A program made the translations under genes and the position numbers. A DNA stretch of 64,000 nucleotides from Verrucomicrobiota bacterium (GTDB lineage Bacteria; Verrucomicrobiota; Verrucomicrobiia; Opitutales; UBA953). This document shows positions 2,994 through 24,561 of the stretch, piece by piece. The notes below the pieces were generated by a model that searched no databases, was not told the origin of the DNA, and saw nothing but the letters and a program-made list of their open reading frames with translations. Positions within the stretch are counted from its first letter, which is position 1. Every line of letters begins with the position of its first letter. The stretch spans positions 1-64,000 of the forward strand of contig VHDL01000004.1 of assembly GCA_016871415.1 (NCBI GenBank), given 5' to 3'.

Positions 2994-4259
2994 ATGTCAG
3001 AGCAGACTGTGCATGTCGCCCGGCAGGGCAAGGTGCTCGGCGTCATGCCTTTCGGCGAAGCCGTGACCCGTCTCGCATCCGGGGAGTTCCGCCCCATCGA
3101 CCATTACTGGATGCCCGGCATGGCCGAATGGCGGGCGCTTTCCGAGCTAGCGCCGCCTCGGCGCAAACCGCCTTTCCCCCGGCCCGTGCCCGAGCCTGCG
3201 GGCCTCATGGACCGCATGCTCGGCCGCATGCACCCCAACGCGGCCCTCGCTGAATTCTGGGACCTCCTCAACGAGTCTCCTGTGGAATGCCTCTTGGGCG
3301 CTGACCGCCTTGCCGAGCTGGAGCGTCGCGTCGGATTCGACGTCCGGAGCCGCTGCCAGAAGCAGCTCGACGCCTGGTATCTTCAGGCCGTGGCCGCCTT
3401 TCTGGCGGACCGTCAGTTCACCCCCCAGGAGCGGGTCAACTTGGGCAACCTTGCGGCCACCTTCGGCATGAGCGACGCACGCGCCCTCGCCCTCCGCCGC
3501 GCCGCATTCCGGGCCCATCTCGTCAGCGGTACCCGCTTCGCGCTGGACCGCGACGCCCCGCCTGAAGCCAAGGCCGCGGACATCCGTGAACTTTCCCTCG
3601 GCGTCCCGCTGCCCCCCGCCGAGGTCGAGGACGTCAGGCAGGAAGTCGTCGGCGTGCACATGGACCGCATCCTCGGCGAGATGGTGGAGAAGGAGGACGG
3701 CGAGGAGCTCCTCGATCCGCGTTCTGCCGAGGCCTTGGAGCGGGAGGCGCGGCTCCTGGGCGCACCGCTCGCCGAGGGCACCTTCGCCGGGCGTCTGGAT
3801 TCGGCCGTGAACGCATGGAAAGTCTTCCGCGGCCCCTTGCCTCAGGTTCCGTGCCCCCTCGAGCTCGGGAGCGAGCCCTGCCATTGGAGCTCCGAGGTCC
3901 AGCTCATCCAGAACAAGCGGATTGTCACCCGTCGTTCCTACGGTGGCCTTTTCGGTTCCAGTCGTTCCATTATGGGCGTGCGCATCCGGGCGGGCAGTTA
4001 CAACGTGCAGCGTGAGACCGAGGACCAGCTGACCAAGATTGACGACGGCGTGGCTGTCTTCACCCCGCGTCGCGTCCTGTTCGACGGCGCCTACAAGAAC
4101 TTCACCGTTGCTCACGCCAAGATCACCGACGTCGTGGCCTACACCGACGCCATCCAGATCAGCCGCGAGTCCGGTCCCGACGTCTATTTCGTCTTCCGTC
4201 AGGACCCCGAGGGCGTGGCCCGTCTCCTGCGCCGACTCGTGCGCGAGGCCCGCCGCTGA
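2994..4259 (+). CDS. GYF_2-domain protein with TerB-like middle and PH-like C-terminus
   Basis: 421 residues, no signal peptide. Residues 1-55 form a GYF_2 (DUF4339) module: V-x-R-x-G-K-x-x-G-x-x-x-F early on, and YWMPGMAEWRAL as the W-containing end. Residues 120-180 (AFLADRQFTPQERVNLGNLAATFGMS) resemble the helical TerB-like fold. Residues 300-415 look like a PH-type beta domain (LTKIDDGVAVFTPRRVLFDG...ITDVVAYTDAIQISRE), as in membrane-associated bacterial proteins with a short-tail PH fold. Such modular proteins are thought to be adaptors at membranes; no enzymatic motif is visible. Function unknown. A second GYF_2 protein lies at 15859-16446. Confidence 0.75.
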   Translation: MSEQTVHVARQGKVLGVMPFGEAVTRLASGEFRPIDHYWMPGMAEWRALSELAPPRRKPPFPRPVPEPAGLMDRMLGRMHPNAALAEFWDLLNESPVECLLGADRLAELERRVGFDVRSRCQKQLDAWYLQAVAAFLADRQFTPQERVNLGNLAATFGMSDARALALRRAAFRAHLVSGTRFALDRDAPPEAKAADIRELSLGVPLPPAEVEDVRQEVVGVHMDRILGEMVEKEDGEELLDPRSAEALEREARLLGAPLAEGTFAGRLDSAVNAWKVFRGPLPQVPCPLELGSEPCHWSSEVQLIQNKRIVTRRSYGGLFGSSRSIMGVRIRAGSYNVQRETEDQLTKIDDGVAVFTPRRVLFDGAYKNFTVAHAKITDVVAYTDAIQISRESGPDVYFVFRQDPEGVARLLRRLVREARR

Positions 4260-15858: not shown

Positions 15859-16446
15859 TCAGGAGCCTCCCTTGAGGAACCAGAACATGACCAGCCAGAA
15901 GGCCAGTCCGAGCACGGCCAGCATGACGGACAGCCTGCCCTGGGCCTGCCTGAGTTCGCCCAGCCCCTCGTGGTCCAGCACCGAGCCTACGCGCCTCACC
16001 ATGGCGACCGGCAGCAGGCTCCCGACGAGCGAGCAGAAGGTCAGCAGCACGAAGCGGGACAGCGGCTGCGTCTCCGGCACCGCCAGCACCCACAGCCAGA
16101 CCAGCAGTCCGAAGGCGGGCGGGAGCAGGAAGGTGGAGCCGCACCAGAGGTAGCCTTCCCGCACGGCGCGCTCAATGGAGTCATCCGACGTCCGTCTCCC
16201 CGCTGCGACGTCGTCTTGGCGGTCGGCCTCACGGGTCTCCGTGCCGGCCATCGCCGAGGGGGCGCTTTCAGACTTGGGGTGCGTCCCGCGAAGGAATTCC
16301 CGCACCGTGATCCAGCGGCCTTCCGCCTCGACCGAATGGGCGAGGCTGACCTCCCCCGCGCGAAGCATGTCGATGATGACCGAGGCGGGGAAGGGGCCGC
16401 TGACGGCGCCTTTCCAACGAATCCTATGGGTGCCTTCGAAGCGCAT
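15859..16446 (-). CDS. GYF_2-domain membrane protein, last gene of the GTPase operon
   Basis: 195 residues from the ATG at 16446 (MRFEGTHRIRWKG), 5 bases after the stop of the 970-residue gene. Residues about 5-55 form a GYF_2-like module (IRWKGAVSGPF...AGEVSLAHSVEAEGRWITVREFL). A linker follows, then at least three hydrophobic segments: LPPAFGLLVWLWVLAV, FVLLTFCSLVGSLLPVAMV and LSVMLAVLGLAFWLVMFWFL. Probably an inner-membrane adaptor whose cytosolic GYF_2 head binds proline-rich ligands; the GAP1-like protein of the same operon has a ten-proline run. That pairing is inference. Confidence 0.75.
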   Translation of the reverse strand: MRFEGTHRIRWKGAVSGPFPASVIIDMLRAGEVSLAHSVEAEGRWITVREFLRGTHPKSESAPSAMAGTETREADRQDDVAAGRRTSDDSIERAVREGYLWCGSTFLLPPAFGLLVWLWVLAVPETQPLSRFVLLTFCSLVGSLLPVAMVRRVGSVLDHEGLGELRQAQGRLSVMLAVLGLAFWLVMFWFLKGGS

Positions 16447-16451
16447 GCGGG

Positions 16452-19364
16452 TCAGAGGTCGCGCCCTTGCAGGATGGATTCCCACCCTCCGGGCGGGACG
16501 GGGACGCCTTCGTTGCCGGCGGACTTCGCGGCCTCCTCCACCGTGCCAGGCATGCGCAGCAGCGGCGAGTAGGGCGCGGCGTCGACGACCTGTTCGGGCA
16601 CCCCTTGCGGGTCGGTGCGGAAGAGCAGCGCGGGCTTGCCGTCACGGTTGAGTCCGAAGAGCCCCTCGCCGGGGATCTTCTCACGCACCACCGGACGTCC
16701 GTCCGCGCCCACGTGTCCGGCGAAGACGACCTGCTTGGAGCGGAGGGCGCCGGCGAGCGTGCGCCAGAAAGTCGCCTCCTTGTAGTAATCGGGGCCGGAC
16801 GAGCGCACCAGCGCCAGCGTGAGGTCGGAGAGCGAAGCCGCCCAGCGCTCGCGGAAGAGGAAGTCATGCTGGGCGACCGCGTTCTGCGTGATGCGACGCA
16901 GCTTCTCCGCGTCGCGTTGGGCCGAGGGGGTGAACGTCAGCCCCCAGACCTCCGGGCGCATGGCGGCGACCTTGAATAGCTCCTGGGTCTGCCAGGCGCG
17001 CAGCTCGACCGGTACCTTGTCGGCGCGGCGGACAAGGTCGAGCGTGCGGAGGACCGGCGCCGTGGCCCGGCCCGTCTCATCGACTAGCCGCGCGAACTGC
17101 CTGAGGTGCGAGGCCTCCGTCACCGGCCCCTCGTCCGTCAGGAAGTCGCCGACCTTGACGTCGTTGTTGAACTCGATGCGACGCCAGCTTCCGCGGACCA
17201 CCGCGCCCTCGGGGGAGAGTTCATCGGCCGTCGTGACGTATTCCGTGCCGTTGCTGATGACGTTGCGCTGCGTGACCGGCTCGCCGATGACGACGATCGG
17301 CCGCATCGGCCGGCGGCCGCGTGGCTCGACGTAGTGGTGGCTCAGACGGCGCAGCTGGCGCGTCAGCGAGTCGTCCCCGATTCGCTTCAGCGTGGCGGCC
17401 TCGCCTTCGCTGAGCGTGAGCGGCAGGAAGCTTCCGGAGCTTTCGGGCGTGCCCGCGGCGTCCCACATGGCGGCGAAGCGCGGGGCGAGGGCCGCCCGCG
17501 GCAGTTCGCGCAGCGACGGTGCGCCGGCGAGCACGTGGGAGGCCCTCCGGTGGGAATCGGATCCGGCGGGCATCTCCCTGAGCGCGCTGCTGAGCGCCTC
17601 GAGGTAGGCCTTGAGGTCGGGGGACTGCTCCAGGGAGCGCCTGATCTCGATGGCGCGCCTTTCGTCGGCGAGCCTGACCGAGGCGCGGTCGGCTTCGGCC
17701 GCGAAGGCGTCGAGCCTCACGTCTCCGGCCTCCGTCAGCAGGCGCACCAGCGCCTTCATGCGATCGAGCGCGGCGACCGCGGCCGCGGGATCCGCGGCCC
17801 GTTCGCCTTCGCCCAGCGCCGCCTTGAGTGCGGCGGCCTGGGCGGAGAGGTCGGAGCGGGCCTGATCGAGGGAGCGCACGCATTCCGCGGCCAGACGTCC
17901 GCCTTCGGAAAATTCCTTCTCCAGGGATTCACGCACGGCCGCGCCGGCCGCCTCAAGCCTGGTCATGTAGGCGCGCAGACGACGCTCCACCTTGGCGGCG
18001 TCCTCGGTGCGGACGCCCGCCTTGAGGACGTCGCGCAGGTAGGCGGCGTCCTCGCGCAAGCCCGTCTCGGTCCTCCGGTTGGCCTCCATGGCGGTCCTGA
18101 GGCCGGAGAGCTCCTCCGGTGTGGCGAAGCCGGTCGGCAGCGACTGCAGAGCCTTCTCGGCGGCGCCGTGTTCCCAGCGTGCGACCAGCGCGCGGACCTG
18201 TTCGAGCCCCTGGGCCGTGCGGAGCTGCTCGCTCTGACGCTGGCTCCACCAGACGGCGCCCGCCCCGATGACCAGCAGGGCGGCGACCCAGCCGGTCAGA
18301 AGGAGCGTGTAACGGCGGCTCAGGCGCGCCCGGGCCTTCTGGCGGAGCGAGCGGGCCTGCTTGGCCGAACCTTCGGCAATCCGGTCGCCGTGCTCGCCGG
18401 CGCGTTCGAGCCAGCTGCCTAGCCTCGCGATGAGCGCCGCTGGGTGCAGCCCGCGGGCCGATTCTTCGCGGAGCCGGTCCAGTTCCTCCGCAAGTTCCTG
18501 GAGGGCGGTCCTGACCGCGGCCTCGCGCGCCGCGTCGGCGGCCAGGGTTCCCGCCCACGATTCGATTTCCGCGATGTCTTCGCCCGCGGGTTCGAGGCGG
18601 TGGTCCCTTTCCAGCGCGCGCAGACGCGGCAGGGCCGTGGCGCAGGACTCCCAGTCCCCGGCGCGTCGGGCGGAGCGGATCTCCTCCGCGAGCGTCGAGG
18701 CCTGCTCCGCGGCGCGCAGGCGGAGCCAGGCCTGCCGACGCAGGAGGGCCTCGTCCCAGCGCGGTTCGCCCGTCAGGTCGCCGGTGCCGAAGCGTTCCAT
18801 GCGGTCCATCAGTCTGGCCGCTTCGGACTCCCTGCCTCCAGCGAAGGCCGCAGCCACCTTCACCAGTGACTCGCGCAGGAATTTCGAGGACAGCCGGGAT
18901 AGCTCTTGGCGGGCGTTGGGGTCGTCGGGATTGATGCGGACGATGGATCTCAGCACCTCGAGGGCGCGTTCCTCATCGCGTCTGCGGATCGCGTCGCGGT
19001 AGTCGCGGTAAAGCGGGTGGCTTTCGCCGATGGCGCGCCCGTAGAGTCCCTCGACCGCCAGCAGGTGGCGGTCGTCGAGCGGGAAGCCGGCGGGCAGCCC
19101 GTGTTCGCGGCAGAATCCGTGCCAGCGGTCCGCGTCGGAGAAGCTCAGGTGCGCGCAGAGTCCCAGCAGGTCGGGATCCGCCTCGGCCGCCTGAAACGCG
19201 GCGTGGTCGTCGCCTGCGCCGATGAGCGTGGCGCACTGTTCCAGCCGTTCTCGGACCCGGGAGCAGAGCGAGGCGTATTCGGCCGCGAGCGAACGAGACT
19301 CAAGGTCGGGGGTGCCCAGCTCCAGCTGGAGCCTGATCCGTGCGATGAGACGTTCGGGGGACAC
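16452..19364 (-). CDS. Large one-TM helical protein of the GTPase/GAP1 operon
   Basis: 970 residues, starting 2 bases after the GAP1-like gene stop. Residues 1-350 are Arg/Glu/Ala-rich helices with TPR-like or coiled-coil repeats (ALEVLRSIVRINPDDPNARQEL). A single transmembrane helix lies at about 352-373 (YTLLLTGWVAALLVIGAGAVWW), preceded by KARARLSRR, so the first half should be cytosolic. Residues 380-600 are again helical; the last ~300 residues form a mixed domain with VVIGEPVTQRNVISNGTEYVTTADE and a Gly-rich GEGLFGLNRDGKPALLF segment. No known enzymatic motif. Function unknown. Confidence 0.8.
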   Translation of the reverse strand: MSPERLIARIRLQLELGTPDLESRSLAAEYASLCSRVRERLEQCATLIGAGDDHAAFQAAEADPDLLGLCAHLSFSDADRWHGFCREHGLPAGFPLDDRHLLAVEGLYGRAIGESHPLYRDYRDAIRRRDEERALEVLRSIVRINPDDPNARQELSRLSSKFLRESLVKVAAAFAGGRESEAARLMDRMERFGTGDLTGEPRWDEALLRRQAWLRLRAAEQASTLAEEIRSARRAGDWESCATALPRLRALERDHRLEPAGEDIAEIESWAGTLAADAAREAAVRTALQELAEELDRLREESARGLHPAALIARLGSWLERAGEHGDRIAEGSAKQARSLRQKARARLSRRYTLLLTGWVAALLVIGAGAVWWSQRQSEQLRTAQGLEQVRALVARWEHGAAEKALQSLPTGFATPEELSGLRTAMEANRRTETGLREDAAYLRDVLKAGVRTEDAAKVERRLRAYMTRLEAAGAAVRESLEKEFSEGGRLAAECVRSLDQARSDLSAQAAALKAALGEGERAADPAAAVAALDRMKALVRLLTEAGDVRLDAFAAEADRASVRLADERRAIEIRRSLEQSPDLKAYLEALSSALREMPAGSDSHRRASHVLAGAPSLRELPRAALAPRFAAMWDAAGTPESSGSFLPLTLSEGEAATLKRIGDDSLTRQLRRLSHHYVEPRGRRPMRPIVVIGEPVTQRNVISNGTEYVTTADELSPEGAVVRGSWRRIEFNNDVKVGDFLTDEGPVTEASHLRQFARLVDETGRATAPVLRTLDLVRRADKVPVELRAWQTQELFKVAAMRPEVWGLTFTPSAQRDAEKLRRITQNAVAQHDFLFRERWAASLSDLTLALVRSSGPDYYKEATFWRTLAGALRSKQVVFAGHVGADGRPVVREKIPGEGLFGLNRDGKPALLFRTDPQGVPEQVVDAAPYSPLLRMPGTVEEAAKSAGNEGVPVPPGGWESILQGRDL

Positions 19365-19366
19365 GA

Positions 19367-21478
19367 TCAGCGGAACTCCAGCAGGACCGGACCGGCCTGT
19401 CCTCGGGCGTCCACCGCACGTAAGGACCAGGGAGCCCCGGCTCCGACTGGGTCGCCGGCTTCGAGGAGCCGTCGGCGGCGGGAGACCTCCCCCTGGCTGG
19501 GTGCGGACGGACCCGTGGCCCTCTCCAGCCTGATGAGGTCCGTCTCCAGCATTGAGCGCGTAGCGCGCACGGAGGGCAGGTCGCGGTCGGGGAACTCATG
19601 CCCGTCGGGGTAGAGGCCGACGCTTCCGGCCGCGTGCACGAATCCGTTGAGCGCGTTCTCCGCCCAAGGGGCGGCGCGGACCGCCTTCGTGTCCGGGTCG
19701 GCGATGAGGGCGGAGGTTCCTAGGTCCAGCGGGCGCAGCGCCTTCGGTGAGCCGATGAGCGCGAAGGCCCGGCGTTCGCCGCCGGGCAGCTCGACTTCCA
19801 GCAGACGGTTGGCGTCGCGGTCGCCGCCGCGTCCGTCGTTGAACTGCAGCGTGACTTTGCGAGCCTTGGCTCCGATTCCGACCATGATGGAGGACAGCCT
19901 GCCGGGTTCCGGCGTGGCCTCGATCCAGTCGGCCTCTCCGCCCTTGCGGATCTCCCCACCGATGAAGCGCGTCGCGTCCTTGCGATGGAATGATTCGAGC
20001 GTCACCACGCGCAGGCGCACGTCGACCGACCTGGACTTGGTGATGCCGACCGAGCTGATCAGGGCGGCGAAGGCGTCGGCACCGGCGGGCGGCAGTTCGA
20101 AGTCGGCCTGGGACGGGCCCTTCGGTCCCGAATCAGCTGTCACCCATGTCCCGACGATGAGCGTCGTGGGTCGGACGTCGAGTTCGGCCGCCGTGCGGAG
20201 CTTGGTGACCGTCGCCGTCAGGGCGGCCCATCCGGCGTCCTCGGGGACGCCCAGGCTCTTCCCCACCGAGACCGCCTCGAGCGCCTCCTTGAGCAGGTAG
20301 GAGGCGGCGGTGACGCCCTTACGGTCGAGCTCCGAGGACAGCTTGCGCGCGGCTCCGGCGGAGTACCTCGACCTGAGTCCGGGGAGATTCTGACTCGCTT
20401 GGCGTCTGGTGAATTCAGGCGAGAGCTCGGCGCTCAGCAGCCAGAGCTTGGCCGCCTCAACGAATTCCTCCCGTGCGACGAGTCCTTCGATCGCTCCGAG
20501 GGCGCTGTTGACGCGCATGATCTCGTCGGCCCTGGCGATCTCCTCCGCGGAAGGGGCGCGGGGCGCGGCGGGCGGAGGGGGAGGGGGTGGCGGCGGCGGC
20601 GTGCGGAAATAGGCGATGCCCAGGCCGACGGCCGCGAAGGCGATCAGCGCGACAGCGCCGATGAGCAGGCCGGAGGGGCCGCTTTTCCTGGCCGCCGCTT
20701 CCTTCAAGCGCGCCGTGGCGTTCGAACGGACCGGCGCGGCGGCACCGGTGGCGGCCGCTTTGGCGGCGGGGCCGGTCGGTGCGGGGAGCGAGGCCGCCTG
20801 GGAAAGGTCGAGCGTGTCGAGGCGTCCTGCGGCCGTGCCCACGCACCAGTCGAAGCCCTCGCCTCCGGTCACGCCTGCGTCCGTCGTGAAGGAGACGGAC
20901 CAGGCGCCTTCGCCGAGCAGGGCGGCGGATTCGGCCAGCAGGCGTAGCGTGCGCGGCGTCGCGGGTGCGTTGATCAGGCAGACCGGCGTCGCCGAGCTCC
21001 CTTGGACCAGCCAGGCCGCCTTGGAACCCGTACCCGTGACCTCGCGCCAGGTCACGGCGGGCGTGAGCGGCGCGTCCTTGGAGAGCGTCAGCGGACGGTC
21101 GTGGCCTTCCAGCCAACGGGGCTGTTCCGTCCACTCGTCCTTCCAGCCCTTCCAGCGCAGGGCCACCGCTGCGGCTGGCGGCAGCACCGTCGCCTCTTCG
21201 GGCGTGAAGACCAAGTGATGCGCGAGACGGTTGTCCCGGCGCGTGTAGTCAAGCCCTCGGGCGACGAACCTCGAGAGCGCGATCCAACGCCGCCCTCCGG
21301 CCTCGATTGAACGGCAGGTGAACGTCTCGCCTTCGCCCGCGGCGTGGGGCGTGCCGAGGGTTTCCAGGATCTGCACCAGACGGTCGGGCATCTCCCGGTG
21401 GCGCGACACCGTGCAGAAGCCGGAGCGTCCGGCGGCCAGCCCCTGCGGAGCCGAAGTGAAGATGAGCTGCAGGGGCAT
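19367..21478 (-). CDS. GAP1-like (GTPase-associated protein 1) one-TM protein
   Basis: 703 residues. The N-terminus matches my memory of the GAP1 type-2 N-terminal domain: FTSAPQGLAAGRSGFCTVSRHREMP at 7-31, RRWIALSRFVARGLDYTRRDNRLAHHLVF in two pieces at 63-91, and GEGFDWCVG at 206-214. A transmembrane helix spans about 270-291 (LLIGAVALIAFAAVGLGIAY), followed by ten consecutive prolines at 294-303 and a ~400-residue extracytoplasmic region with no recognised motif. Such proteins accompany P-loop GTPases in clusters proposed to act in conflict or stress responses. Located 1 base after the GTPase stop. Confidence 0.8.
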   Translation of the reverse strand: MPLQLIFTSAPQGLAAGRSGFCTVSRHREMPDRLVQILETLGTPHAAGEGETFTCRSIEAGGRRWIALSRFVARGLDYTRRDNRLAHHLVFTPEEATVLPPAAAVALRWKGWKDEWTEQPRWLEGHDRPLTLSKDAPLTPAVTWREVTGTGSKAAWLVQGSSATPVCLINAPATPRTLRLLAESAALLGEGAWSVSFTTDAGVTGGEGFDWCVGTAAGRLDTLDLSQAASLPAPTGPAAKAAATGAAAPVRSNATARLKEAAARKSGPSGLLIGAVALIAFAAVGLGIAYFRTPPPPPPPPPPAAPRAPSAEEIARADEIMRVNSALGAIEGLVAREEFVEAAKLWLLSAELSPEFTRRQASQNLPGLRSRYSAGAARKLSSELDRKGVTAASYLLKEALEAVSVGKSLGVPEDAGWAALTATVTKLRTAAELDVRPTTLIVGTWVTADSGPKGPSQADFELPPAGADAFAALISSVGITKSRSVDVRLRVVTLESFHRKDATRFIGGEIRKGGEADWIEATPEPGRLSSIMVGIGAKARKVTLQFNDGRGGDRDANRLLEVELPGGERRAFALIGSPKALRPLDLGTSALIADPDTKAVRAAPWAENALNGFVHAAGSVGLYPDGHEFPDRDLPSVRATRSMLETDLIRLERATGPSAPSQGEVSRRRRLLEAGDPVGAGAPWSLRAVDARGQAGPVLLEFR

Positions 21479-21479
21479 G

Positions 21480-23180
21480 TCAGGGGGCGGAGGAGATGAG
21501 GTCGGGAGAGGCGAGCCGGAGTAGCCAGTAGACCGGCTCGTGCACGTGCGCGGGCGAGAGCCGCAGGGGGTCCGGCGCGATGCGTCCGCGGTTGGGTCCC
21601 GCCTCGACCGTCACTGGGCAGTGACCGAAGGAGGTGGCGGCGAAGTAGAGCAGTTCGGAGGCGAGCGACTCTGCCGAGGCGACGAGCTCGGGGCAGAGTT
21701 CGGCGAGGACCGTGCGCACGCGGCCGGAGTTGCGGTCGAGCGCGGCGAGGTCGAGTCCTCCGTTGCGCACGACCGGCTCGAGCGGCGAAGGCAGCAGGTG
21801 GGCCCAGGTGTCGCACTTGCCGACCACGAACGCCAGCGGCGTGGCGATCTTCTGCTCGTGCGAAAGGCCCAGCACCCGCTTGATGCGCGTCTCCATCTCG
21901 GCGAGGATCGTGTCCTGCTGGTCGATTCGGCCGCGCATCGTGAGCTGGGGATCCCCGACGCCCACCAGCCTGGACTTGAAGCGGGCGTTCGCGGTGGGGT
22001 CGAAGAGGAAGATCAGCCCGGAGGAGGTGGCGATGTGCATCGCCCCGGGCGAGTCATGGATGTCGATGCCCGGTTCGAAGTGCTCGCCGGCGTTGTCGTA
22101 GAAGATCATCGAGTTCTCCTTCGAGCGCTGGCCGGGCCGGCCCACCGAATAGATGAATGGACGCGGGAGGGACACCATCTTGCCCAGGCGCGGCAGCTTC
22201 TCATAGGTCGCGCCTTCCAGGGCGGTCTTGCCGAGCAGCGCCTCCTCCGGCGTGGTCGCCGAGAACAGCGAATTGCGCATCTGGTTGAGCAACATGTTGC
22301 CGCTCGGGTCGCCGTCGCGGAACGCCAGACCGAAGTCCGTCGGCAGGCGTTCCTGCAGCACGCGCGTGAGCACGGCCAGGTAGTAGGACTTGCCTGAGCT
22401 CGGCGCGCCGATGAGCGAGATGATGCGATGAGGGAGGTCGAGGTAGCCGGGCGGCAGCTGGCGGCGGCAGTGAGGGCACGCCATGTCGGTGCAGGCGAGG
22501 CCCTTCGGGTCGAGCGCGAGCCCCTGGTCGTTGAAGCGCGTCGGATGGAAACGGAGCCTGGCGTCAGAGCCCAGCACCGGATCGCCGCGCAGGTCCTCAT
22601 GGACCGCGACGCTGAGGGCATCGCCGGCGTCGAAGCGCGTCCAGCAGACCGGGCAGACGTGGGCCCCCTTGTTCAGTTCTGCCGAAAGCGAAGCCGTGGC
22701 CGACTTGACGGGCTCGGGGGCGGGAGCGAGCAGGGGGGCGACCTTGGAGAGGCTGAACCCGATTTCCAGGCCGCACGGCGTGCAGCCCAGCGTGTCCGGG
22801 GCGCGACCCAGTTCGGCGGCGCGGTCCAGCAGCGCGACCGCCGGGCACTCCGCGATCTGTTCGCCCGTGATGACGTCGAACAGCGCCCACCGCGAGCAAT
22901 CCGCGGCCTCGATGGTCGTGTCATCCTCCGGGCCCACCACCAGGAGCGCCCCGTCGGTCTGCAGGGTGGAGACCTCGGTGAGTCCGGTCGGCGAGCGGAA
23001 GGCGGCTCCGTTCAGGAACGAGGGCCTTTCGCCGGGCTCCAGCATAAGGTCCGCACCGCCTTGCATGACGCGGACGGAGCAGTTCGGATGGGCCGCCGAG
23101 AGATCCTTGGCCAGGCCACGGGCGCCGGAAAGACAGTTAAGCCAACGCACTTGGGAGGACTTCTTAAAAGAGGGCAGCAT
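21480..23180 (-). CDS. Zinc-ribbon P-loop GTPase (double-GTPase-like), partner of GAP1
   Basis: 566 residues from the ATG at 23180; 26 further in-frame upstream codons run toward the sigma gene's start and look non-coding. Residues 1-170 form a beta-rich unknown domain. Zinc ligands are seen as C176-P-V-C179 and C230...C235-P-H-C238. Then comes a P-loop GTPase: Walker A GAPSSGKS at 258-265, YDNAGEHF at 361-368 as the G3 region, and GKCD at 454-457 as a G4 variant of NKxD. It heads the four-gene operon. GTP specificity is inferred from the G4 motif. Confidence 0.82.
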   Translation of the reverse strand: MLPSFKKSSQVRWLNCLSGARGLAKDLSAAHPNCSVRVMQGGADLMLEPGERPSFLNGAAFRSPTGLTEVSTLQTDGALLVVGPEDDTTIEAADCSRWALFDVITGEQIAECPAVALLDRAAELGRAPDTLGCTPCGLEIGFSLSKVAPLLAPAPEPVKSATASLSAELNKGAHVCPVCWTRFDAGDALSVAVHEDLRGDPVLGSDARLRFHPTRFNDQGLALDPKGLACTDMACPHCRRQLPPGYLDLPHRIISLIGAPSSGKSYYLAVLTRVLQERLPTDFGLAFRDGDPSGNMLLNQMRNSLFSATTPEEALLGKTALEGATYEKLPRLGKMVSLPRPFIYSVGRPGQRSKENSMIFYDNAGEHFEPGIDIHDSPGAMHIATSSGLIFLFDPTANARFKSRLVGVGDPQLTMRGRIDQQDTILAEMETRIKRVLGLSHEQKIATPLAFVVGKCDTWAHLLPSPLEPVVRNGGLDLAALDRNSGRVRTVLAELCPELVASAESLASELLYFAATSFGHCPVTVEAGPNRGRIAPDPLRLSPAHVHEPVYWLLRLASPDLISSAP

Positions 23181-23220
23181 GGGGCCGGACGGCTGGGCGG
23201 ACGGAGATTGGAAAGAGCAG

Positions 23221-23249
23221 TTGAAAAGTGGGTTTTTGTCAGCATCATT
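23221..23249 (+). promoter_or_regulatory. Possible promoter of the ECF sigma gene
   Basis: In the 86-base gap between the divergent GTPase and sigma genes, TTGAAA (23221-23226) and ATCATT (23244-23249) are 17 bases apart and 17 bases before the sigma ATG. This is the most A/T-rich part of the gap. Only moderate similarity to the sigma-70 consensus; an ECF-type autoregulated promoter cannot be told apart by eye. Confidence 0.3.
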
Positions 23250-23266
23250 TCCCTTCATTGGACCCC

Positions 23267-23857
23267 ATGGAAACTGAAGCCGACCAGTCCGCCCTTGATC
23301 GGGCCAGAAAGGGCGACCTTTCGGCCTACAATGAGCTCGTCCTGAAATACCAGGGGCGGATCTTCGCCAAGGTGTTCTCCCTGCTGCGCAACCGTCAGGA
23401 CGCCGAGGAGATCACCCAGGACACCTTCATAAGGGCTCACCGGGTGCTCACTTCGTTCCGCGGTACGGCCACTTTTTCGACCTGGATTCATCAGATTGGC
23501 GCCAATCTCGCTCGTAATCGCTACTGGTACTGGCGTCGGCGCAAGCGTGATCAGTCCATGTCCTTGGACGCCGACCTCGGCGAGGACCAAGGAACCACCC
23601 TGCATGACATCCTTCCGGACGGATCCCAGGGTCCGGGCGGCGAGGCCCAGCACAACGAATTTGTGAGCAAAGTGGCCGAGTGCATGGAACAACTCAAGCC
23701 GGAGCACGCTCAGATACTTACCATGCGGAACGTCCAGAACTTGTCCTATGAGGAGATCGCCGAGGAGCTCGGCCTTTCCATCGGCACGGTCAAGAGCCGC
23801 ATCAACCGGGCCCGCGAGGCCCTGCGCAATCTCATGGGAGGGGAGTTCAGGCAGTGA
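23267..23857 (+). CDS. ECF-family RNA polymerase sigma factor
   Basis: 196 residues from the ATG at 23267. Region 2 reads YNELVLKYQGRIFAKVFSLLRNRQDAEEITQDTFIRAHR, with FRGTATFSTWIHQIGANLARN as the promoter-melting end; region 4 is KPEHAQILTMRNVQNLSYEEIAEELGLSIGTVKSRINRAREAL (shown here in parts of the family signature). No anti-sigma or extra C-terminal domain is fused. The next gene starts with GTG overlapping its TGA, the usual sigma/anti-sigma coupling. It is divergent from the GTPase/GAP1 operon and is a candidate regulator of it. Confidence 0.93.
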   Translation: METEADQSALDRARKGDLSAYNELVLKYQGRIFAKVFSLLRNRQDAEEITQDTFIRAHRVLTSFRGTATFSTWIHQIGANLARNRYWYWRRRKRDQSMSLDADLGEDQGTTLHDILPDGSQGPGGEAQHNEFVSKVAECMEQLKPEHAQILTMRNVQNLSYEEIAEELGLSIGTVKSRINRAREALRNLMGGEFRQ

Positions 23858-24561
23858 ACGTCCTTCAGTTCGAATCATTGGTCGTCCGCTACGTCGAGGG
23901 GTCCGCCTCCGCTTCCGACCTTTCCGCCCTGCGCGCCTTCGTCTCCGGATCGCCCGACAACCGGGAGCTCTTCCGCGCCCGCGTACGGCTGCGTCGCGCC
24001 CAGCGCGGCCTGGCCAGCCGCGAGGCCGCCGAGGCCGTGCTCCGCAAGGAGACGCTCCCTTCGCTCCCCGAGTTCGACCAGCTGACCTACGCCTACCTTG
24101 ACGGCGTGGCCGGCCAGGCCCAGGTCCTGCGGCTGCGCGACGCAATCCGGGCCTCCGGCGACCTGAGCAGCCGATTCCAGTCGCGCATGCGGCTGCATGC
24201 AGCCCAGACCGCCTACCTCCGTTCATGCCGTCAGGCCGGCGCGGCCCAGGCCCTTCGTTACCTGAGCGCCTTCGCCCAGAGGCTCGGACGCGTCTCCGCG
24301 CATCTGTGTCTGCTGCTCCTCATCTTCGTCGAGCTGAGGGTGACCGTGCCCGCCGAGTATTCCGGTCTGATGTACTACGTGGAGTCGGCGGTCGGCGCCG
24401 TGTCCGAACCCGAATTCCCCCTTTCCGTCTCCCCTGACGAACCCGACCCGCCGGTTTCCTCCGGCGTCTTCGACGGCTTGCCGCCGCCCATGCCCATGCC
24501 TGCCTTCATTCCTGAGCCCGGACTGGACGAGGCGTCCGAGCCCGATTTTGCGGAGGCATAA
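23854..24561 (+). CDS. Putative anti-sigma factor with duplicated N-terminal domain
   Basis: 235 residues from a GTG overlapping the sigma stop. Two tandem copies of a short helical domain are visible: residues 6-50 (LVVRYVEGSASASDLSALRAF ... FRARVRLRRAQ) and 74-118 (LTYAYLDGVAGQAQVLRLRDAI ... FQSRMRLHAAQ). Each resembles the N-terminal helix bundle of planctomycete-type anti-sigma/FecR proteins. A hydrophobic stretch at about 149-162 (HLCLLLLIFVELRV) may be a transmembrane helix, and the C-terminal 70 residues are Pro/acidic and would be extracytoplasmic. Role inferred from position and the helical repeats. Confidence 0.72.
   Translation: MNVLQFESLVVRYVEGSASASDLSALRAFVSGSPDNRELFRARVRLRRAQRGLASREAAEAVLRKETLPSLPEFDQLTYAYLDGVAGQAQVLRLRDAIRASGDLSSRFQSRMRLHAAQTAYLRSCRQAGAAQALRYLSAFAQRLGRVSAHLCLLLLIFVELRVTVPAEYSGLMYYVESAVGAVSEPEFPLSVSPDEPDPPVSSGVFDGLPPPMPMPAFIPEPGLDEASEPDFAEA

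Follow-up and report, generated by a model that had tools for sequence, protein, structure and literature searches.

A DO-GTPase/GAP1-N2 operon with a constant large one-TM component, core-like in a freshwater Opitutae lineage and linked to motor genes in relatives

The window analyzed here is a stretch of 64,000 nucleotides (positions 1 to 64,000 of contig VHDL01000004.1, assembly GCA_016871415.1) from a Verrucomicrobiota bacterium whose close relatives are freshwater Opitutae MAGs. Four minus-strand genes, referred to as GTPase, GAP1, BIG, and GYF, are encoded in that order and face a divergent ECF sigma factor gene and a putative anti-sigma factor gene (Table 1). The intergenic gaps are 1 base (GTPase/GAP1), 2 bases (GAP1/BIG), and 5 bases (BIG/GYF), and an 86-base gap (23181-23266) separates the operon from the sigma gene, which starts at 23267. 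An earlier sequence-only reading of this DNA had described the same four genes, their spacing, and the gap held in common with the sigma/anti-sigma pair, and a check of the gene limits bore this description out.

Table 1. Genes and features of the operon and the divergent sigma/anti-sigma pair (window positions).
Feature	Position	Strand	Product or basis
GTPase gene	21480..23180	-	DO-GTPase, 566 aa
Zinc-ribbon cysteine pairs CPVC...CPHC (GTPase residues 176-238)	22467..22655	-	No variation in alignments of 12 and 27 homologues
P-loop GAPSSGKS, GxxxxGKS form (GTPase residues 258-265)	22386..22409	-	Motif reading
Switch II DNAGE (GTPase residues 362-366)	22083..22097	-	Invariant in aligned homologues
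G4-like GKCD (GTPase residues 454-457)	21810..21821	-	G, K, D conserved in close homologues
GAP1 gene	19367..21478	-	GAP1-N2 protein, 703 aa
GAP1-N2 domain	21110..21469	-	PF20013
GAP1 TM helix (residues 271-289), N-in by flanking charge	20612..20668	-	Topology prediction
Ten-proline run (GAP1 residues 294-303), not conserved	20570..20599	-	Sequence comparison
BIG gene, GTG start	16452..19364	-	One-TM protein, 970 aa
BIG TM helix (residues 353-371)	18252..18308	-	Topology prediction
GYF gene	15859..16446	-	GYF-like protein, 195 aa
Element TGACA-N10-TTTCAAC in divergent promoter	23220..23241	-	Conserved
ECF sigma factor	23267..23857	+	TIGR02937, 92.4 bits; Sigma70_r2 and r4_2
Putative one-TM anti-sigma factor	23854..24561	+	Position, overlap with sigma, one TM

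The product of the first gene contains a degenerate FHA/GYF-like N-terminus, a zinc ribbon, and a TRAFAC-type GTPase domain, confirming its earlier identification as a zinc-ribbon P-loop GTPase, and the TRAFAC-type motifs together with the zinc ribbon place it among the DO-GTPases. Both the GTPase motifs and the zinc ribbon are nearly invariant across relatives. Against the DO-GTPase2 profile the window protein scored 22.3, below the cut-off of 27, and full-length homologues scored 28.3, 28.3, 30.7, and 27.6, all above it. An FHA domain (PF00498) was detected over cut-off in the GTPases of loci L164, L171, L193, L196, and L199, and in none of the GTPases of the window's family. In L193 and L199 the FHA domain is followed by GYF_2. 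The N-terminus of the window GTPase aligns with the FHA region of these relatives, and the alignment shows that the FHA hallmarks have been lost. A PDB sequence search with the GTPase returned no relevant match.

The second protein carries a clear GAP1-N2 domain (PF20013, E 1.7e-14, 54.5 bits against a cut-off of 24), as had been anticipated, and its gene lies downstream of the GTPase gene at a distance of 1 base, which is the arrangement of DO-GTPase/GAP1-N2 systems. Beyond the TM helix, a periplasmic helical and beta-rich region is predicted. The AF2 model of GAP1 (mean pLDDT 85.0, pTM 0.55) is good per domain, not for the overall arrangement; compared with PDB folds it gave no match at E <=0.001, and the C-terminal part gave weak Ig-like fold matches. 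The proline run of this protein had been proposed as the target recruited by the GYF head of the fourth protein. That proposal was rejected on topology and on the non-conservation of the run. Since the prolines come after the TM helix of an N-in protein, the run would be periplasmic, whereas the GYF head is predicted to be cytosolic, and at least five consecutive prolines occur in the GAP1 of just 6 of 37 relatives.

BIG is predicted to comprise a cytosolic helical domain, a single TM helix in an N-in topology, and a long periplasmic part. In agreement with its first description as a 970-residue helical one-TM protein without a known motif, one TM helix was found and no Pfam family matched. 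The AF2 model (pLDDT 86.5, pTM 0.48), again good per domain and not for the overall arrangement, gave no match to PDB folds at E <=0.001. Its fold matches were to generic helical repeats, and a PDB sequence search yielded weak helical-bundle and coiled-coil-type matches only. The window GYF protein consists of a GYF-like head and a C-terminus with three TMs. Its designation as a GYF_2 membrane protein stood with respect to the TMs and, by homology, the head, but GYF_2 (PF14237) gave no Pfam match in the window protein itself; the domain was weakly matched in 4 of 17 close relatives and strongly (2.4e-15) in the orthologous operon L193, and on the latter ground the window protein is considered GYF-like. 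The C-terminus of the GYF protein differs among loci, being represented by three TMs, CD225, PrsW, or RDD. Elsewhere in the window, a second protein (2994-4259, plus strand) shows a weak resemblance to GYF_2 at its N-terminus (7.6e-5, 24.1 bits, slightly below cut-off). Two unrelated loci (L044 10604-11074 and L163 12689-13117) encode, near BIG, a small membrane protein that carries a CPGCGTxRAxH motif.

Within the window's family (f1, 79 genomes), BIG was present in 63 genomes and GAP1-N2 in 66. Within the window's genus (g1, 55 genomes), the same eight genomes were without both BIG and GAP1-N2, and the operon proteins were present in 20 of the 22 genomes of at least 90% completeness. In the g1 loci examined, the operon is single-copy and always sits with rsfS/tRNA-Met on one side and sigma/ptsP on the other, not in a mobile gene neighbourhood; the order lpxI-nadD-rsfS, GYF-BIG-GAP1-GTPase, and sigma-anti-sigma-ptsP-hisC does not vary among the g1 loci examined and hardly varies among those of g5. 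The operon in this genus is core-like, unlike a mobile defence cassette. Furthermore, pairwise identity of the operon proteins tracks that of PtsP (Spearman 0.76-0.88). This correlation with the product of a linked gene means that these genes evolve together as a block, and does not establish vertical descent across the genome. In g2, BIG-GYF is mostly split from GTPase-GAP1, with BIG in 9/9 genomes and GAP1-N2 in 7/9. Orphan GAP1-N2 proteins of 465-491 aa, with no GTPase, BIG, or GYF gene alongside, were observed in L155-L159 (g4 of the family), adjoining a lysC-like gene in two of the loci read.

A wider search with HMMs built from f1 proteins showed that the arrangement GTPase-GAP1-BIG, in most cases including GYF, recurs unchanged in many further families of the class, and that it extends to other classes of the phylum. 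Among 384 genomes of the class, 24 of the 26 genomes with BIG also had GAP1-N2, against 2.4 expected (p 5e-27, a statistic that ignores phylogeny), and the association persisted once the window's family was set aside (19 of 21 genomes with BIG; p 3e-23, likewise ignoring phylogeny). BIG is a constant third component of this GTPase/GAP1-N2 module. Order and gaps of about -4 to 20 bases were kept in every examined relative with all four genes adjacent, and on these grounds the four-gene arrangement is far beyond chance. The recurrence of BIG and GYF with GTPase-GAP1 in genomes of many families, together with the cross-genome gene order, supports the earlier view of the four genes as a genuine module to which BIG and GYF belong. 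Some GAP1-N2 loci have no recognisable BIG, namely some loci of f12 and L185 (f35), an HSP70-GrpE locus whose association matches a theme of Kaur et al. 2020. An apparent GAP1-N2 fusion frame of 13,583 aa (L186 1-9636, G432 contig 1) was discarded as an artefact of a masked N run.

The product of the divergent gene contains sigma-70 regions 2 and 4, and the putative anti-sigma factor gave a weak zf-HC2 match (E 0.42). The sequence-only reading had suggested that this pair may control the operon and had proposed to look for a shared sigma-regulated promoter in the 23181-23266 gap across genomes; neither a dedicated regulator nor a shared sigma-regulon promoter was supported. G058 represents a natural deletion (L211 1492-2318) in which nadD, rsfS, and tRNA-Met adjoin the sigma/anti-sigma genes and exactly the four operon genes are missing. 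The genera g2 and g3 also have the sigma gene, at a place away from the operon. As the sigma gene is kept after loss of the operon in the one case and lies apart from it in the other, the pair is not dedicated to the operon, and regulation of the operon by the pair is possible but unproven. Of 39 distinct intergenic regions, 21 contain the promoter element in the form TGACA-N10-(A/T)(A/T)TCAAC, where shuffled sequences gave a mean of 0.003; about half of the distinct regions do not match this expression, many of these being g1 regions with a diverged form. The element has one exact copy genome-wide, at the operon, and was found at none of five examined sigma genes without an adjacent operon (L211-L215). 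It is therefore not, in this form, a sigma promoter shared across a regulon; its occurrence follows the operon and not the sigma gene. Its interpretation as an ECF -35/-10 pair was also rejected, as the spacing does not fit. The ECF sigma factor is the most conserved of the proteins compared (median 90%), far above its neighbours, suggesting a general role in the lineage.

In 16 loci of relatives, the operon region encodes a MotA/TolQ/ExbB-like protein, identified by HMM, and two single-TM proteins, and PF01618 was over cut-off in all five motor loci scanned with Pfam. Both single-TM partners carry an aspartate at the start of the TM in 15 of the 16. An aspartate at this position is the proton-carrying residue in TolR, ExbD, and MotB, and by analogy it may carry protons in these partners. 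The trio is mostly encoded after GYF, but L177 has it on the upstream side of the GTPase gene, so the motor link is not just one frozen gene order. A dedicated TolQ subfamily was evident, with the 13 strongest class-wide matches all in GAP1-N2 genomes and clearly separated from the next matches (1.7e-85 versus 9.8e-56). The HMM search detected no MotA/TolQ motor homologue in the window operon or the window genome, and the motor reading therefore cannot extend to the window genome. In the f93 loci L196, L197, and L200, PilM-like and PilO/GspM-like genes follow BIG in place of the TolQ/TolR trio, with Pfam support that is weak in part.

The chances are about even that these genes specify a GTPase-switch complex of the inner membrane whose arms reach into the periplasm; it would be driven by a motor in many relatives and lack one here. 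The cytosolic DO-GTPase would dock on the GAP1-N2 head of GAP1, GAP1 and BIG would be single-span membrane proteins with large periplasmic domains, and the GYF membrane protein would act as adaptor. The nucleotide state of the GTPase might govern whether the periplasmic part assembles or is active; alternatively, it might report a periplasmic signal inwards. Since many relatives pair this complex with a TolQ-like channel plus two TolR/MotB-like subunits, the fuller form is probably a trans-envelope machine that is ion-driven and gated by the GTPase. A bolder extension, possible though rather doubtful, is that such GTPase-gated ion-driven machines occur phylum-wide, an FHA-GTPase/GAP1 switch controlling a TolQ/TolR-like 5:2 motor via BIG; the window lineage would then have lost the motor, as opposed to never having had it, and kept the switch and scaffold.

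The main rival to an envelope complex is a phage-defence or conflict system in which GTPase and GAP1 would jointly set a threshold, with the membrane proteins as effectors directed at the cell membrane. Membership in the GAP1-N2 family, which is predicted to act in conflict, speaks for it, as do the variable C-terminus of the GYF protein and a patchy distribution in the class, with the system in 36 of 384 genomes as would be expected of a conflict system. Such a role nevertheless appears unlikely given the single copy, fixed site, and near-constant presence in the window's genus; furthermore, GAP1 was unmatched on 72,556 plasmids, BIG was unmatched in 50,697 phage records, and no PADLOC defence family fits. 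Decidedly less probable is that the operon forms an arm of an envelope-stress regulon, turned on when the ECF sigma/anti-sigma pair senses envelope stress. The divergent pair is conserved in f1 and f7 although the flanking genes differ, the promoter between pair and operon holds a strongly conserved element, and the PSP literature links DO-GTPases with membrane stress (PMC11237479); against this stand the sigma gene retained without the operon in G058 and placed elsewhere in g2 and g3, and the absence from those sigma genes of an element that the genome has in exact form at one position.

A chance alignment of unrelated genes, kept in place because the genome rearranges slowly, has in its favour that the housekeeping neighbours are likewise syntenic in f1. 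It is refuted by the identical order in families with wholly different neighbours, the genes being co-retained even when split and lost as one unit in G058, and we regard it as extremely improbable. The GTPase-switch complex at the inner membrane is retained as the preferred reading. What a literature search returned on GAP1/DO-GTPase systems was a computational prediction of a conflict role and one passing mention. The existence of a branch that contains BIG, is associated with motor genes and is core-like in a freshwater lineage points to a role in the cell envelope for at least a portion of these systems.

The sequence-only reading had put the operon forward as a candidate for an undescribed system; comparison with known systems shows that it is not wholly undescribed. 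It is a DO-GTPase/GAP1-N2 system, the GTPase and GAP1-N2 core of which was published in 2020; according to Kaur et al. 2020 (PMC7159879), such systems include planctomycete GYF-TM partners, Verrucomicrobiae are among the listed hosts, and a conflict role is predicted computationally for all GAP1 systems. The order of GTPase then GAP1-N2, the zinc ribbon, and the TM partners are common to both. The differences from that account are that BIG stands in place of an FNIII protein and that the operon is core-like rather than mobile in the genus; as no FNIII match was found in the four operon proteins at E<1, the operon represents a variant and not the FNIII subtype. The BIG protein, the FHA head on the GTPase of relatives, and the TolQ/TolR-like trio lie outside the description of GAP1-N2 systems in the main text of that paper, and a literature search found no other treatment of these three in GAP1-N2 systems. 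In relatives only, the trio resembles the TolQR/ExbBD/MotAB 5:2 ion-driven motors in its MotA/TolQ/ExbB domain and two single-TM partners with a TM-start aspartate; it differs in being encoded with GTPase, GAP1, BIG, and GYF, and is absent from the window genome. The TPR-tolQ-tolR-tolR-vWA clusters of PVC bacteria (Williams-Jones et al. 2025, PMC12204202) likewise have a TPR gene beside a tolQ-like gene that is accompanied by a heterologous pair of tolR-like genes, but by their description a vWA transducer defines the family and neither a GTPase nor GYF is mentioned. Zorya (ZorAB) shares a MotA-like core with the relatives, which gave weak ZorA matches (24-27 bits) and no ZorB, ZorC, or ZorD match, and no Zorya component matched the window proteins. 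Set against these systems, the GTPase-GAP1-N2 core is known, BIG as its constant component is new, and the FHA domains on the GTPases of relatives and the link to motor genes go beyond the main-text account of GAP1-N2 systems; if the motor reading is true, a GTPase-controlled member would be added to the ion-driven motors.
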